DNA of 64,000 nucleotides from Microcella alkalica (lineage in GTDB: Bacteria > Actinomycetota > Actinomycetes > Actinomycetales > Microbacteriaceae), in the NCBI RefSeq assembly GCF_014137945.1, contig NZ_JACGWX010000002.1, positions 372,001 to 436,000 of the forward strand. Direction: 5' to 3'. The notes under the pieces were generated by a model that had not been told where the DNA came from, did not search any database, and worked only from the letters and a program-made list of their open reading frames with translations. The translations under genes were made by a program, and so were the position numbers. Below, one piece after another: positions 47,911 to 55,869 of the stretch. The number at the start of each line of letters is the position of its first letter. The stretch's first letter is position 1.

Positions 47911-47984
<74 letters not shown>

Positions 47985-47985
47985 C

Positions 47986-48030
47986 AAATGCCGAAAGGGG
48001 CCGTCCAATGGACGGCCCCTTTCGGCATTT
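47986..48030 (+). terminator. tRNA-Pro terminator
   Basis: Perfect 21-bp stem (AAATGCCGAAAGGGGCCGTCC with its complement) closed by a 3-nt loop, beginning two bases after the tRNA, then CTT. Works in both directions on paper. Confidence 0.9.
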
Positions 48031-48192
48031 CTTGGGCTAATCGACATTGCACCTGCGAGCAGGTGGGCCCACGCCGCGCGAGGGGCCCCGGGCGCGGCTC
48101 CGCCGCGTCTGGGGGAGCCTGTCGCGCGTCAGAATGTTTGGCAGGGGTAGTTAGTTGCTGATGCAACGCCCCAGCTGAAAGGTCTGAATGTC

Positions 48193-48769: not shown

Positions 48770-50778
<2,009 letters not shown>

Positions 50779-50848
50779 TCTCCAATCGTTGAGTGTTCAC
50801 TTTTCGAGCGTCGTTACTGTCCAGTTTTCGAGCGTCGTCGACAGGAAG

Positions 50849-51598
50849 ATCTGGGCGATGACGCGGCATGACGGTCATAAGGTGTCGCAGGCGACTGTGC
50901 TGCGGCTGCTGCGCGATGACGGGCTGATCCTGCCGTCCGAGTACCAGAGGCAGCGCCGCCAGCTCGCGGCGGATCGCAAGGCCGCGTTCGCGAGGAACCC
51001 GACGGGGCCCAATCAGGTGTGGCAGCTGGACTTCAGCGAGTTCGAGACCACGACCGGTGGCACCTGGCGGATCGCCGGGTGCCGGGACTGGTTCTCCAAG
51101 GTCGAGCATCCGTTCCACGTGTCGCCGACAGCGAATCAGCACGACGCGATCGCGGCGATAGAGCTCGCCTTGGTCGATTACGAAGCGATGTTCGGGCACC
51201 CGCTCGTCGACACCTGCCCTATCGATCCCGAGACCGGTGAGCTGCTGCCGGTGGTGACGATCGTGACGGACAACGGCGGCCCGTTCCGGTCGCTGAATTT
51301 CGAGCTGTTCATCATGCGCCACCCCGAGCTACGTCACGTCCGCACCCGAGTGAGATCACCGGGTCAGAACGGGTCACGCGAACGCGGATTCGGAACATTG
51401 AAATACGAGCGGCTGTTCCTCGACGACATCCCCGACGCGCTCACCCTCGTCGAACGCGCAGAGGACTACCGCATCGAGTACAACACCGAACGTCCTCACG
51501 AAGCGATCGCCTGGAACCGGCCGATCGACGTGCACCTCGGCCTGGCCGACCCCACCATCCCCAACTTCGAAATCGAAGAAACCCTGCCAACTACTTGA
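50849..51598 (+). pseudogene. IS3-like OrfB, 3' fragment with the catalytic core
   Basis: Codons 68-316 of the split transposase, from IWAMTRHDGHKVSQATV. Integrase-type catalytic residues are all here: D in WQLDFSEFETTTGG, D in VTDNGGPF, E in GSRERGFGTLKYERL; IEYNTERPHEAIAW is the usual C-terminal block. An open frame exists from 50564, but the added part is from the IS21 end and antisense istA. Confidence 0.88.
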
Positions 51599-51672: not shown

Positions 51673-52254
51673 TCAGCGGGTTTCGTGAGGGTGCTCCACG
51701 AGACGTGCACCTTTGGCCATGAGAAAGCGCTTGTCGCCACGCATTTGCAGCGGGGTACCTCGCGGGGTGGGGTGCAGCGGATCTCCACCGCCCGTGAGCC
51801 CGTCGAACGTGAAGAGCTTCACATCGAGGCGTTCGAGCGTCTCCAGGACGTCAGCTCTTGCTCGACGTAGCGTCCGGTTCTTCAACCCACCCCAGGCTCC
51901 CAGCACCTCGCTGGCCCCGAATCTTCGGAGGACCGCCCCAATCACTTCGCAGTTCGCTGCTGAGAGACTCGGGTCGAATGGGGACAGGTTTGACGCGTCA
52001 GTGGCTCTCTCCGGATAGAGGTTAAGCATCAGCCAACCTGAAGCCCGGTTGTCGATGCTCGCCCTGATGAGACGATTGACCGTCCTGTCGGCTTGAAGGC
52101 GAGTGGCATATGACGGATTCATGCAGATCGCGATCAATGGCGGGCTGCTGATCGAGCTACGTTGCACATTGCCGAGGGCAAAACGATGGCTTTGCTCCTC
52201 GGGGTCCGGCTCCCAGAAGTCTGGCTCTTGTCCTAGGGGGTACTCAGTCGACAC
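51673..52254 (-). CDS. DUF1643 protein
   Basis: 193 aa, unknown function. Family blocks: LIAICMNPSYAT...DRTVNRLIR, SGWLMLNLYPERATDASNL, VLGAWGGLKNRTLRRARADVL and HPTPRGTPLQMRGDKRF near the end. GTG 52254 has GGAGGA upstream, 17 nt after the helicase stop, so it is the third gene of the mazG-like/helicase operon. DUF1643 proteins are frequent in phages and mobile islands. Lower GC than core genes. Confidence 0.85.
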   Translation of the reverse strand: MSTEYPLGQEPDFWEPDPEEQSHRFALGNVQRSSISSPPLIAICMNPSYATRLQADRTVNRLIRASIDNRASGWLMLNLYPERATDASNLSPFDPSLSAANCEVIGAVLRRFGASEVLGAWGGLKNRTLRRARADVLETLERLDVKLFTFDGLTGGGDPLHPTPRGTPLQMRGDKRFLMAKGARLVEHPHETR

Positions 52255-52271
52255 TCAATCCTCCGAGGCTG

Positions 52272-54053
52272 CTAAGTCGTCCCTGACGTGCCAATATGCC
52301 GCCTCAAATGGGCCCGGAGCGAGGAGTCGCAGACGTAGACGTAGGTCCCCTTGATTCCTCGAGTCAGCAACACCGCGTAGACGTTCGAGATGTAACGCAG
52401 CAATTCGTCGTCGCTGTAGACCCGCCCCAGCGTCGGGTTGTTCTCCTTGCCTTTCTTGTCGAAGTAGCTGGCGCGGTCGACGATCAGGCGCTGTGCATCC
52501 TCGTCCCACTGAAGGTCGTTGCCGATGATGACGCCGGCGTAGTTGAGGTCGTAACCCTGCACCGTGTGGATCGAACCGACTTCTTCCAGCGAGGTCTTCG
52601 AGGCGATCCAGTCGGTGGCAGTGGTGTTCCAGCGAAGCTGCCGGCCGTCGAGTTCGATGTCGAATGCCGCGGGGTCGTTGCGGCTCTTCCACTCCCACGC
52701 GTAGCCGGCGACAAGGCGCGCGAGCCCGTGTTCGGCGTCGCGCTCGCGGATGGCGTCGTGCATCTCGCCGAGGTCCTCGACGAACCGCAGGTCGTAGCCC
52801 TCAAAGTTCCGCGGTGCGGGGGGCGGAGCATCCGGATCGGGAAGGCCCGGGCGCAGGATGCTGCGCACCCACCCGATGTAGTCTTCGCCGGCCTTCACCC
52901 GTAATTGCGATACGAGCGGATAGTGACGCCCGTCAGCCTTGGCCTCGTCGACGAGCGCGCGCAGCAGGTTGGGCGGTAGGTCGGCGGGTCGCACGCTCTG
53001 CGCGGGATCCACCATGAGGATCTGGTGGCGACTCCGCGCGCGAATCCAGTCGAGCTGCGTCTTGGTGATGTCATCGGCGCCGAAGAGCTTCGTGGTGATG
53101 TCGATGAACTGCCGGTTCTGGATGCCCGATGGCTGGTTGGCGCGCTGGTTGAGGCGGTGGGCTTCGTCGACGATGAGCAGATCCCATGGCTCATCGCTCA
53201 CCCCGACCTGGAACGGCGTCAGCACCTGGATGGGGCTCAGCCCGGGCGTGCGCTTGAAGACGCTTTGGATGCTTTTCCGCAGAGACTGCTGCGGTACGAC
53301 GAGCCCGACCCGGAAGTCGGTCAGCAGTTGACGATGTCCGTCCGTGAAGAAGTCGGAGAAGATCGAGTCGGCGTCGGGCTCATCATCGGGCCGGGAGGCC
53401 TTGATGTCGGCGAGCAACTTCATCAGGTAGATCGCGACGACGGTCTTGCCGGTGCCGGGTTCACCTTGCACGATCAGCAGCTCGCCGATGTTCTCCTCGA
53501 GGTCGTCGAAGAGACCCTCCACGATGCTCTCGACGGCGACCGCCTGGTCGGTGGTGAGCGCCTTGTACGGGGAGAGCTTGAAGAGATCACTGTTCTCGAT
53601 CTCGGGAATGCTGCGGGAGAAGATGCCCTCATCGAGCAACTGCTCGAACACATCCTGGAACGATTCGCGGTACAGCTCGCGGTCGTAGTAGTTGGAGTCG
53701 GTGATGCCGTCGTTGCGGTTGAGCACGCGGTAGGTGCCGTCGCCGGCGAGCAGGCGGATGAGGTGCGATTCGAGGTCGAGGCACGCCGACTTGTTGTACC
53801 GGTCGTCAAGCACGACCCGGAACTGCGCGAGCAGGCGCTTCTTGTCGGGGTTCTCGAGGTGCTGCAGGATGCGTGCCTCAGCGTTGAGCGTCTCGCCGAC
53901 GTAGACCTCTTTGAGGCCGGGCGCCTTCACGTTCTTGTCCGCGGCGTCGAGCAGGTACACGACCGGCCAGTTGCGGTGCCGCGGGTCGGTCTTGGCCCAC
54001 GCGCGCACGGCGTCTTTCTCAAACGCGATGCGCTGAATCTCAGAGCTGGTCAT
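52272..54053 (-). CDS. GIY-YIG nuclease fused to DUF2075 superfamily 1 helicase
   Basis: 593 aa. Residues about 28-105 form a GIY-YIG-like domain: PVVYLL (GIY), EVYVGET (YIG, Y51-G53), R61 in EARILQHL and E95 in LDLESHL. Then a P-loop helicase/NTPase: Walker A QGEPGTGKT (G197-T204), Walker B LLIVDEAHRLNQ, motif III-like HQILMVDPAQSVRPAD, and late motifs GSIHTVQGYDLNYAGVIIG and ISNVYAVLLTRGIKGTYVYV. ATG 54053 is inside the pyrophosphohydrolase gene (14-nt overlap). Probable role in nucleic-acid surveillance or defence (inference). Lower GC and more A-ending codons than the core. Confidence 0.9.
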   Translation of the reverse strand: MTSSEIQRIAFEKDAVRAWAKTDPRHRNWPVVYLLDAADKNVKAPGLKEVYVGETLNAEARILQHLENPDKKRLLAQFRVVLDDRYNKSACLDLESHLIRLLAGDGTYRVLNRNDGITDSNYYDRELYRESFQDVFEQLLDEGIFSRSIPEIENSDLFKLSPYKALTTDQAVAVESIVEGLFDDLEENIGELLIVQGEPGTGKTVVAIYLMKLLADIKASRPDDEPDADSIFSDFFTDGHRQLLTDFRVGLVVPQQSLRKSIQSVFKRTPGLSPIQVLTPFQVGVSDEPWDLLIVDEAHRLNQRANQPSGIQNRQFIDITTKLFGADDITKTQLDWIRARSRHQILMVDPAQSVRPADLPPNLLRALVDEAKADGRHYPLVSQLRVKAGEDYIGWVRSILRPGLPDPDAPPPAPRNFEGYDLRFVEDLGEMHDAIRERDAEHGLARLVAGYAWEWKSRNDPAAFDIELDGRQLRWNTTATDWIASKTSLEEVGSIHTVQGYDLNYAGVIIGNDLQWDEDAQRLIVDRASYFDKKGKENNPTLGRVYSDDELLRYISNVYAVLLTRGIKGTYVYVCDSSLRAHLRRHIGTSGTT

Positions 54054-54357
54054 ACTTCTCGCTGCGGCCCCGCACAATGTCGGCCGGGTACTTGGCGCGG
54101 GTCTGCTCAAGCTTGTCGAGCACGAGCTGCTGCGGGTCAGCGCCGATCTTGTCGGCCAGCAGGAAGCAGTAAGTCAGTACGTCTGCGAGTTCTTCCCGAA
54201 GGTGAGCATCGTCGACTTCGCCGCCCCACTGAAATACCTCGAGAAGCTCCGCTGCCTCGATTGAGATGCTCTTCGCGAGGTTCTCAGGTGTGTGGAACTG
54301 AGACCAGTCGCGTTCCGCAACGAATGCGCGCAAGGCTTCGAATGCGGCCTCTGTCAT
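54040..54357 (-). CDS. MazG-like nucleotide pyrophosphohydrolase
   Basis: 105 aa all-alpha NTP pyrophosphatase of the RS21-C6/MazG type. Metal-binding pattern E34-x-x-E37 ... E56-x-x-D59 (SIEAAELLE and REELADVL) intact, plus FHTPENLAKSISIEAAELLEVFQW typical of the family. First gene of the operon; leaderless -10 TACGCT on the minus strand 6 nt before the ATG at 54357. Could hydrolyse noncanonical or signalling nucleotides made during infection (inference). Confidence 0.9.
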   Translation of the reverse strand: MTEAAFEALRAFVAERDWSQFHTPENLAKSISIEAAELLEVFQWGGEVDDAHLREELADVLTYCFLLADKIGADPQQLVLDKLEQTRAKYPADIVRGRSEKYDQL

Positions 54358-54363
54358 GCGCAA

Positions 54364-54369
54364 AGCGTA
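54364..54369 (-). promoter_or_regulatory. -10 hexamer of the MazG-like operon
   Basis: TACGCT on the minus strand, 6 nt, ATG at 54357. Back-to-back with the promoter at 54433. Confidence 0.55.
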
Positions 54370-54432
54370 GCCGGGCGATGGCGTAAGTCGCCGCCCCTGA
54401 AACGGGGGATCGGAGCCAGCCTCAACTTCAGA

Positions 54433-54438
54433 TACCTT
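54433..54438 (+). promoter_or_regulatory. -10 hexamer of the DUF4041 gene
   Basis: TACCTT, 6 nt, ATG at 54445. Confidence 0.55.
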
Positions 54439-54444
54439 CGCCCC

Positions 54445-55869
54445 ATGACGAATGCAGTTGCCGGTTGGTACGACGATGGTTCTGGGCGGCAGCGGTGGTG
54501 GGACGGTCAAGCGTGGACGGCGCACTTCGCAGACCAGGCCGTAACCCGTGCGCAGATCTCCAGCCCGACGCCATCTGTCCGCTCGGCCTCCGCAATGCCG
54601 AAGGTCGGACTCTTCGGTGGGAAGAGGGCGGCGCTCGCTTACGCAGCTGAAAACGGGCGTCTGCAGTCGCTAATCGACAAGCACGGACTCGCGGAGGTCG
54701 AGGAGCTTGACGCGCTCAAGGAGACCTACAAGAAGCAACTCGACGAGCTCAAGGCGCAAATGGACGCGTCGCGGGAAGCCGTCGCGCGTTCCGCAGGCGA
54801 GCTTGCGGCCGCCGTTCAACGCGATGTCCTGAGCGCGCGGGCAGCGGTCGAGCTCCAGTCCTACGGGCTATTCGACTACGAGCACCCGGCCGAGTCTTCG
54901 ACGTTGCTGGGGTCGCAGCTCGATGCTCTCAGGTCTGAAATCAAGCAAACGATTCGCGGGAAGCGAGCCACTCAGGCGAGCAGCAACTTCACCTTCAACG
55001 GCTCAACCGCGAAGGGGAAGAAGTTCGTCAGTGACATGTCGAATCTTCTGCTACGTGCGTACAACGCCGAAGCCGAGAACTGCGTCAAGTCGGTGAAGGC
55101 CGGGAACCTGCCCACAGCAACGAAGCGACTGAACACCGTTGTGGAACAGATCGCTCGTCAGGGCACGATGATCGATCTTCGAATCACCCCGCACTTCCAT
55201 CAGCTCCGTATGAAAGAGCTTGCATTAGCTGCCGAGCACCTCCAGGCCCGCCAGCGAGAAAAAGAACTGGAACGAGCGCACAGGGAGGAGCTACGCGAGC
55301 AACGCAAGGCCGAGCAAGAACTCGCCAGGCAGAAGGAGAAGCTTGAGAAGGAGCGATCCCACTACGTCGCGACCCTTGCTGCGCTAGAGGCGAATGGTGA
55401 TGTAGAGGGTGCCCAGCGCATCCGCGATCGCCTGGCGGACGTCGATAGGGCGATCGAGGACGTCGACTACAGGGCTGCGAACATCCGCGCTGGGTATGTC
55501 TACGTAATTTCGAACGTCGGGTCATTCGGCGGGGATGTGGTGAAAATTGGAATGACGCGCAGGCTTGAACCGATGGATCGCGTCAACGAACTCGGGGACG
55601 CGTCGGTGCCATTCAGATTCGACGTTCACGCCCTCTTCTTTGCCGATGACGCGCTCGGAATCGAGGCGAAGCTCCACAAGAAGTTCGACGAGCACCGCAT
55701 CAACAAGGTGAACCTGCGACGTGAGTACTTCAAGGTCACGCCAGACGCGGTGCTTGAAGCACTGAAAGCGGAATCGGTCGAGGTGCTGGAGTACGTCCTC
55801 GAGCCAGAGGCGCTGGAATTCAAAGTCAGTGCCGCGAAGTCAGCGCCGAAGATCTCCACCGGCGGGTGA
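54445..55869 (+). CDS. DUF2510 - DUF4041 - GIY-YIG (MUG113/T5orf172) protein
   Basis: 474 aa. N-terminal DUF2510 (GWYDDGSGRQRWWDGQAWTAH, residues 7-27); coiled coil about 65-110 (VEELDALKETYKKQLDELKAQ); DUF4041-like central part about 110-285; a charged coiled coil about 285-375; a C-terminal GIY-YIG-type nuclease domain about 385-460 (GYVYVISN, VVKIGMTRRLEPMDRVNEL, EAKLHKKF, REYFKV). DUF4041 plus MUG113 is a known combination in phages and islands; DUF2510 is an actinobacterial domain often near membranes. Noticeably AT-richer than the core. Divergent from the MazG-like operon with 87 nt between starts. Confidence 0.88.
   Translation: MTNAVAGWYDDGSGRQRWWDGQAWTAHFADQAVTRAQISSPTPSVRSASAMPKVGLFGGKRAALAYAAENGRLQSLIDKHGLAEVEELDALKETYKKQLDELKAQMDASREAVARSAGELAAAVQRDVLSARAAVELQSYGLFDYEHPAESSTLLGSQLDALRSEIKQTIRGKRATQASSNFTFNGSTAKGKKFVSDMSNLLLRAYNAEAENCVKSVKAGNLPTATKRLNTVVEQIARQGTMIDLRITPHFHQLRMKELALAAEHLQARQREKELERAHREELREQRKAEQELARQKEKLEKERSHYVATLAALEANGDVEGAQRIRDRLADVDRAIEDVDYRAANIRAGYVYVISNVGSFGGDVVKIGMTRRLEPMDRVNELGDASVPFRFDVHALFFADDALGIEAKLHKKFDEHRINKVNLRREYFKVTPDAVLEALKAESVEVLEYVLEPEALEFKVSAAKSAPKISTGG

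Follow-up and report, generated by a model that had tools for sequence, protein, structure and literature searches.

Within the window analyzed here, a stretch of 64,000 nucleotides (nt) of the Microcella alkalica genome (assembly GCF_014137945.1, contig NZ_JACGWX010000002.1, positions 372,001 to 436,000), a small operon encodes a MazG-like protein and a protein that joins a GIY-YIG nuclease domain to an SLFN-g3 helicase, and it stands back to back with a gene of the SNIPE/PD-Lambda-1 family. Our preferred and, we believe, probable explanation is that the locus, in a tRNA-Pro hotspot, combines a two-gene nuclease-helicase defense with a SNIPE that works independently beside it, while the DUF1643 gene behind the operon is probably a passenger outside the system. 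That the MazG-helicase operon serves defense in some form appears quite likely from the sequence evidence, whereas the task of the MazG within it can be named only tentatively.

Pairing of the MazG and helicase genes

Our family sample comprised 199 genomes of Microbacteriaceae, searched at expectation values (E) of up to 1e-30 for the helicase and up to 1e-8 for MazG. The helicase protein was found in 52 genomes and this MazG in 51, and the two coincide almost perfectly, with MazG in 50 of the 52 helicase-positive genomes versus 1 of the 147 helicase-negative genomes (Fisher p 2e-43). The sole MazG-only genome (G100) has a match of just 35 residues, and the helicase-positive genomes without a MazG match have either a partial helicase match (G018) or a stop in the frame (G070). 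The genes lie less than 100 nt apart in 49 of the 50 genomes and 1,068 nt apart in the other (G093). From this strict co-occurrence, it is predicted that neither gene protects fully alone in this lineage.

The arrangement is conserved down to the junction. Among 40 neighborhoods, drawn from 40 of the 51 other helicase-positive family genomes, MazG was present in 39, and the overlap of its frame with the helicase ATG measured exactly 14 nt in 36 of these (11 nt in two and another length in one). Helicase identity at these loci is 51 to 67%, and the overlap could provide translational coupling of the two genes. Since the open reading frame (ORF) caller missed the short MazG genes in 24 of the 40 loci, we established the pairing by tblastn and profile searches. 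Clustering of the 801 called ORFs gave a third gene cluster in 12 loci at most, at scattered positions. In a wide scan, covering the best 80 of at least 587 helicase relatives (our sets of 29, 40, and 80 relatives share genomes), MazG lay directly upstream in 72, abutted downstream in 2, and was not found in 6, one of them cut off by a contig end. The MazG-bearing relatives include Bacillota, Saccharibacteria, Nomurabacteria, Pacebacteria, Kerfeldbacteria, Gracilibacteria, and Firestonebacteria. Because it recurs in most relatives examined, the arrangement is not a product of chance. The divergence of MazG and that of the helicase were also correlated (Mantel r of 0.69 for 67 pairs and 0.55 for 52 close pairs; 0 of 999 permutations each), in a test that cannot tell co-transfer from shared descent. 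The initial annotation of this DNA had proposed that four genes act together; MazG and the helicase do belong together, paired in 50 of 52 genomes and across phyla, but joint action of all four as one system is not supported.

The closest helicases found are those of Microcella putealis (80% identity) and Microcella alkaliphila (79%). The distribution is patchy, the helicase being absent from three other genomes of the genus (G074, G137, and G189) and, at E 1e-80, present in 51 of the 199 family genomes versus 5 of 396 genomes in a sample of the phylum. In the helicase tree, which we read as reflecting horizontal transfer, Rathayibacter clusters with Arthrobacter citreus and Rothia (100/100), as does Frigoribacterium sp. 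JB110 with Microbacterium halotolerans (100/100). A second MazG gene, on contig C3 of the M. alkalica genome, scores better against PF03819, and the operon MazG is therefore probably not the housekeeping copy.

Defense genes around the pair

The neighborhoods of the pair are rich in restriction and defense genes, in agreement with the defense-like island proposed in the initial annotation. PADLOC and Pfam scans were run on 120 of 156 selected neighbor proteins (loci L073-L103) and on 120 control proteins from 20 stretches at round coordinates in the same genomes, which are not random draws. At E 1e-15, 111 PADLOC models were matched among the neighbors versus 8 among the controls, the former number being inflated by overlapping methylase models. 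DNA methylases, Vsr, and NERD were among the 25 commonest Pfam families in the neighbor list only, AAA_21 appeared in both lists (3 neighbors and 2 controls), and UvrD was also among the neighbor families.

The same holds for the site itself. From tRNA-Pro(ggg) to the glutamate dehydrogenase gene (gdh), the DNA differs in content among four other genomes of the genus: the module is present there in M. putealis and M. alkaliphila but not in G074 (an interval of 13.5 kb) or G210. In a scan of 87 of the 90 ORFs of these four intervals (leaving out an edge ORF and both helicase ORFs), the 87 proteins matched 205 PADLOC models at E 1e-12, a figure that has no control at the same threshold. The matches include RmrA/RmrT, SoFic, a type I methylase, and two PD-Lambda-1 matches, which correspond to the module's own SNIPEs.

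Relatives are also found on plasmids. Out of 72,556 plasmid records, 24 carry this MazG and 23 the helicase, with 10 common to both; on these 10 plasmids, the pair is not always adjacent (about 10 kb apart in Paenibacillus and about 4 and 8 kb in Hymenobacter). Neighbors of the plasmid relatives include N6-methylases with S subunits, type III-A CRISPR, MrcB-like genes, and restriction endonuclease genes. On a Hymenobacter plasmid (L300:8218-12204), two tandem DUF2075 genes follow a restriction endonuclease and a methyltransferase gene, and two SLFN-g3 helicases also lie close together in G386 and G376.

Predicted activities and possible mechanism

The helicase protein has a GIY-YIG region at about residues 29-116 and a helicase domain at residues 192-576, the latter matching PF09848 (SLFN-g3_helicase, formerly DUF2075). 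The GIY-YIG region scores under the Pfam cutoff (E 0.013), and we take it as real because of its invariant hallmark residues. The signature of GIY-YIG nucleases consists of GIY, YIG, Arg, His, Glu, and Asn, and Y33, Y51, G53, R61, H65, E95, and N112 are present in 70 of 70 helicase proteins, as are the Walker A residues G200, G202, and K203 and also D296, E297, and H299 (70 of the 80 wide relatives were counted, 10 being dropped for truncated or unclear ends). The two GIY-YIG domains, the helicase, and the MazG-like pyrophosphohydrolase of the initial annotation are all present, the GIY-YIG domain of the helicase protein being weak in Pfam and backed by its residues.

In the MazG, residues H22, E34, E37, W44, E56, D59, and K82 are conserved in 72 of 72 upstream copies. 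The nearest solved structures are the pyrophosphatase 4qgp (E 1.4e-17), which we take to be of archaeal type, and RS21-C6/dCTP pyrophosphatase 1 (dCTPP1; 2a3q/6sqw; E 9e-17), with which MazG residues 11-104 align. The operon MazG is a bacterial protein of 105 amino acids (aa), and 50 of the 51 MazG-bearing family genomes also have the nuclease-helicase. It keeps the Glu/Asp set of dCTPP1 (E34, E37, E56, and D59), presumably for metal binding, and the His and Trp (H22 and W44) that we take to bind the base. This points to an all-alpha nucleoside triphosphate pyrophosphohydrolase of the dCTPP1/RS21-C6 type. Judged by their intact hallmark residues, both the MazG and the helicase protein look active.

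The nuclease part of the helicase protein seems to be exchangeable. A motif script, and thus the sequence motif alone, marked a PD-(D/E)XK-like N terminus in place of GIY-YIG on other SLFN-g3 helicases at 12 loci, 4 of which have a MazG nearby (L070, L269, L270, and L272), with none found in the flanks examined of the other 8. Halomonas (L287) provides a further PD-(D/E)XK-like case with MazG, there with an S24 peptidase gene in between. On a Nocardiopsis plasmid (L289:5001-6361), a MazG of the same type shares a 4-nt overlap with an HNH endonuclease gene, which looks like another MazG-nuclease pair; a GIY-YIG gene and a DUF2075 gene are found close to it.

A mechanism consistent with these features would have the helicase load on invading or replicating foreign DNA and then travel along it, with the GIY-YIG domain nicking or cutting the DNA during this movement. 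The MazG would hydrolyze dCTP, or a modified dCTP, to the monophosphate, and the resulting shortage of precursors would stall both phage replication and the repair of the cuts. Such a role for MazG as an effector on the nucleotide pool is a tentative proposal, to which we give somewhat less than an even chance. If the pair does protect the cell, it would be a common two-gene system that genetically locks nucleotide hydrolysis to DNA cutting, and the prokaryotic SLFN-g3 helicases would gain a testable role.

The divergent SNIPE gene

The divergent protein matches the PADLOC model PD-Lambda-1 with an E of 3e-102, and by this homology, it is a SNIPE/PD-Lambda-1 homologue that most plausibly works as an autonomous neighboring defense gene. 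We take PD-Lambda-1 and SNIPE to be one family. The description of DUF4041 in both PMC9519451 and PMC13190303, which date from 2022 and 2026, respectively, fits this assumption. The claim of the initial annotation that no described system corresponds to this locus therefore fails for the divergent gene. According to PMC13190303, SNIPE is a nuclease bound to the membrane, and it cleaves phage DNA while this is being injected; the Escherichia coli protein was characterized as a single protein and is toxic without its transmembrane domain. The same paper gives the predicted N-terminal transmembrane segments of SNIPE homologues as one in 59%, two in 7%, and none in 34%.

The window protein shares with SNIPE the DUF4041 domain (residues 201-255) and the C-terminal GIY-YIG/T5orf172 domain (residues 350-441). 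In contrast to the E. coli protein with its transmembrane anchor, it has an N-terminal DUF2510 domain (residues 6-33), absent from the initial annotation, and no hydrophobic segment: its maximum 19-residue Kyte-Doolittle value is 1.02, and none of the 22 family SNIPEs reaches 1.6. An anchor is not obligatory for membership. By eye, the N termini of the 22 were read as DUF2510-like in 15 and as PPGW repeats in 7. E407, the putative catalytic Glu, is present in 21 of the 22, and from its position, it would be the equivalent of E414 of E. coli SNIPE. DivIVA, T3SS (type III secretion system) ATPase, PH, and DUF4428 are the N-terminal regions named for SNIPE homologues in PMC13190303, and its main text does not mention DUF2510. 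The M. alkalica genome has six other DUF2510 loci; our motif caught four of them (missing two), which represent three different proteins, all with a hydrophobic segment. These tryptophan-rich modules (DUF2510/PPGW) may act as a local envelope adaptor, in which case DUF2510 would do the envelope targeting that falls to the transmembrane helix in E. coli SNIPE, and the protein would cut phage DNA as it enters the cell.

A SNIPE on a Rhodococcus plasmid, near mcrC, matches over residues 3-465, the DUF2510 region included, and a Curtobacterium plasmid has DUF2510 and DUF4041 in two genes annotated separately. At two loci (L082:11318-12583 and L143:6062-7825), the first 4 nt of a PPGW-type SNIPE gene are shared with an ORF that matches no Pfam family; this ORF may be either a SNIPE partner or an artifact of ORF calling. 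In M. putealis (L113:5516-6175), the last 4 nt of the SNIPE gene are shared with a NERD-domain gene; an ORF equal in length and start is present there in M. alkaliphila, and a different gene follows SNIPE in the window.

Weighing the evidence

Several observations weigh against a two-gene defense that hydrolyzes dCTP beside an autonomous SNIPE. The pair is not always complete: the 6 relatives without MazG among the 80 and 6 of 8 plasmid GIY-YIG relatives without one in the flanks examined mean that MazG may be an accessory. MazG relatives with no adjacent nuclease are found too, in ordinary surroundings in Enterococcus faecalis, Polaromonas, and Caballeronia and beside other genes in Hymenobacter, and some plasmid helicases have largely metabolic neighbors. 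dCTP is proposed as the substrate from similarity and pocket residues only, and 4qgp slightly outscores the dCTPP1 structures. Adjacency of SNIPE and the operon is rare outside Microcella. Finally, the PADLOC count has the inflation described above, the family lists cover the 25 commonest, and the most-matched model, mad3, hit 6 neighbors but also 3 controls.

Another role for MazG, which we regard as unlikely, would be that of a guard or off-switch. The nuclease-helicase would then be dangerous or held inhibited by a nucleotide ligand that MazG removes, in a toxin-antitoxin-like arrangement triggered by infection. The position of MazG as the first gene, the overlapping frames, the co-divergence, and the near-perfect co-occurrence in the family would all suit such a role. 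However, a toxin should never occur without its partner, and the helicase has no MazG nearby in the 6 of 80 relatives or at the plasmid loci L066, L068, L193, and L195-L197; GIY-YIG-SLFN helicases without MazG in the flanks examined occur on plasmids of Lactobacillales, Enterococcus, Paenibacillus, and Lysinibacillus. The helicases of G070 and G018 also lack a MazG match, although these are the genes with the in-frame stop and the partial match.

A similarly small chance is given to the explanation that the module mainly targets plasmids or other mobile elements or belongs to the competition kit of a mobile element. The tRNA hotspot with its insertion sequences and the relatives on plasmids speak for it, as does the scarcity of relatives on viral contigs: a close-relative scan for the helicase found none there, and an alignment scan found at least four distant ones. 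Among the viral matches listed, L293 has a MazG abutting, and L296 has one close by on the opposite strand. On these scans, a phage origin of the pair was rejected. One record labeled as phage (L072, 54% identical) was not counted as such because it is an unverified metagenome scaffold, seemingly with a glycogen-debranching-type gene. Mechanistically, action against plasmids or mobile elements is no different from a nuclease-helicase defense, and the neighboring SNIPE targets phages.

The possibility that the pair is a mobile DNA repair and nucleotide-sanitizing module, with MazG clearing damaged dCTP and the nuclease-helicase processing damaged DNA, is more doubtful still. dCTPP1 and MazG proteins are house-cleaning enzymes, Vsr and UvrD occur among the neighbors, and NUDIX/MutT-type genes are annotated nearby in L067, L197, and L285. 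Against this stand the patchy presence within the genus, the separate MazG gene elsewhere in the genome, and the location in defense-rich variable regions and on plasmids.

That all four genes form one cooperative defense system is very improbable and was rejected on the neighborhood counts, since despite their adjacency here, a DUF1643 gene was found near none of the 80 wide relatives and SNIPE near only 3 of these and 2 of the 40 family loci in the flanks examined, and E. coli SNIPE was characterized as a single protein (PMC13190303). The link between SNIPE and the operon is one of shared islands, with no sign of a joint mechanism. In three Microcella species, M. alkalica among them, SNIPE divergently adjoins MazG; it lies within about 2 kb of MazG-helicase in Microbacterium sp. 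B19 and G086, there with a different SNIPE type, and lies about 10 kb from the operon in G034; L079 has only a DUF2510 match. A relative with 81% nucleotide identity over the operon (L115) has MazG and the helicase but, over the 10.7 kb examined, nothing that matches SNIPE, and the number of family genomes with both SNIPE and the helicase, 8 of 199, does not differ significantly from the approximately 5 expected (p = 0.086). DUF1643 was likewise near the operon in 0 of 29 and 0 of 40 relatives in the flanks examined, and no DUF1643 relative was found in viral contigs; somewhere in the genome, it is present in 14 of 199, M. alkalica included.

Relation to known systems

For the MazG-helicase pair, the claim that no such system has been described holds within the open-licence literature and PADLOC 2023. 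We found no open-licence paper joining DUF2075 with MazG or GIY-YIG and none joining Schlafen with GIY-YIG, nor anything on a MazG-helicase pair in the passages on anti-phage Schlafens that were examined; a paper bringing MazG, GIY-YIG, a helicase, and anti-phage defense together concerned another subject. No PADLOC model covers the whole helicase protein and none matches the MazG at E 0.1; partial matches are those of PDC-S14 to the GIY-YIG region (E 1e-7) and of PDC-S41 to the helicase C terminus (E 1e-9). SNIPE is the part already known, the MazG-helicase pair is undescribed so far as searched, and newer lists of defense systems may contain it.

One parallel is with the Schlafens, whose layout is a nuclease fused to a group 3 helicase. 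The window protein has the same type of helicase (PF09848, E 7e-65) and the same kind of fusion, but a Schlafen-core (AlbA_2-type) nuclease was not detected in it (Pfam, E 0.1), and GIY-YIG or, in relatives, a PD-(D/E)XK-like domain takes its place. Islands on Bacillota plasmids share features as well. An MrcB_N protein precedes the GIY-YIG-SLFN helicase in Paenibacillus, and Priestia has a row of DUF3578, MazG, and a helicase known by its DUF2075 region, as in MrcB-type islands. Reminiscent of DEAD-PLD helicase islands, one strand of a Lactiplantibacillus plantarum plasmid (L067:2249-12672) carries a NUDIX gene and a PLD-ResIII-DUF3427 helicase ahead of MazG and the GIY-YIG-SLFN helicase, followed by two unnamed genes and DUF2357. 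Among the 40 Microbacteriaceae neighborhoods, a third gene of this kind does not recur, as judged by general ORF clustering and not by a dedicated search.

It is conceivable, at slightly below even odds in our estimation, that the pair represents a widespread, undescribed class of immunity in which a dCTPP1-type pyrophosphohydrolase is coupled to an SLFN-g3 helicase with an exchangeable nuclease (GIY-YIG or PD-(D/E)XK), from Actinomycetota, Bacillota, and Patescibacteria to haloarchaea, and that the SNIPEs of this actinobacterial family have replaced the membrane helix by tryptophan-rich adaptors (DUF2510/PPGW). If so, control of the nucleotide pool and attack on nucleic acid would be united in one operon, as a prokaryotic counterpart of the antiviral nuclease-plus-helicase layout of Schlafens.

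Layout of the locus and the tRNA-Pro site

The four frames, the 14-nt overlap, the 17-nt gap between the helicase stop and the DUF1643 start, and the 87-nt divergent spacer of the initial annotation are all present (Table 1). Its description of lower-GC DNA beside insertion sequences and a tRNA was also borne out: the guanine-plus-cytosine (GC) content of the module is 0.61-0.63 versus about 0.69-0.76 for the majority of the window's 1-kb steps, with further low-GC steps at 13-19 kb and 60-61 kb. A shared promoter in the divergent spacer was rejected, as a sigma-70 scan of the 87 nt found none (chance alone would give 0.4 sites in this region).

Table 1. Features of the M. alkalica locus, in window coordinates
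Feature	Position	Strand	Remarks
MazG-like gene, 105 aa	54357..54040	-	Pfam PF12643, E 1.2e-17; first gene of the two-gene operon
GIY-YIG + SLFN-g3 helicase gene, 593 aa	54053..52272	-	PF09848, E 7e-65; second gene of the operon
DUF1643 gene, 193 aa, GTG start	52254..51673	-	PF07799, E 8e-19
Divergent (SNIPE) gene, 474 aa	54445..55869	+	PF13250 DUF4041, E 4e-16; T5orf172 (PF10544), E 3e-16; MUG113, E 5e-17
Overlap of MazG and helicase frames, 14 nt	54040..54053	-
Divergent spacer, MazG start to SNIPE start, 87 nt	54358..54444		Same junction in M. putealis and M. alkaliphila
tRNA-Pro(ggg)	47911..47985	+	Flanks the variable tRNA-Pro-gdh interval
IS21-type istB/istA pair and rve transposase, between tRNA and module	48770..51598		IstB_IS21, E 7e-75; Mu-transpos_C_2, E 1e-28; rve_3, E 3e-10

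The tRNA-Pro(ggg) gene is probably an integration site in this group, because G210 carries a 47-nt repeat of the 3' part of the tRNA. In that genome (L250:170-8815), a 5' partial tRNA copy lies just upstream and the 47-nt 3' copy 8.5 kb downstream, which suggests repeated integration. Within the window, a search for an attachment-site repeat of the tRNA gave only matches of chance length. After the tRNA, there is a 45-nt near-perfect inverted repeat (region 47911-48030, tRNA included), and a stretch of 31 to 33 nt (48118-48150) has four further identical copies in the genome and is probably the end of an insertion sequence. In the M. alkaliphila interval (L114:14792-17733), a gene for a UvrD-like helicase and one for an OLD-like TOPRIM/AAA_21 protein share a 4-nt overlap, an arrangement that resembles a Gabija pair.

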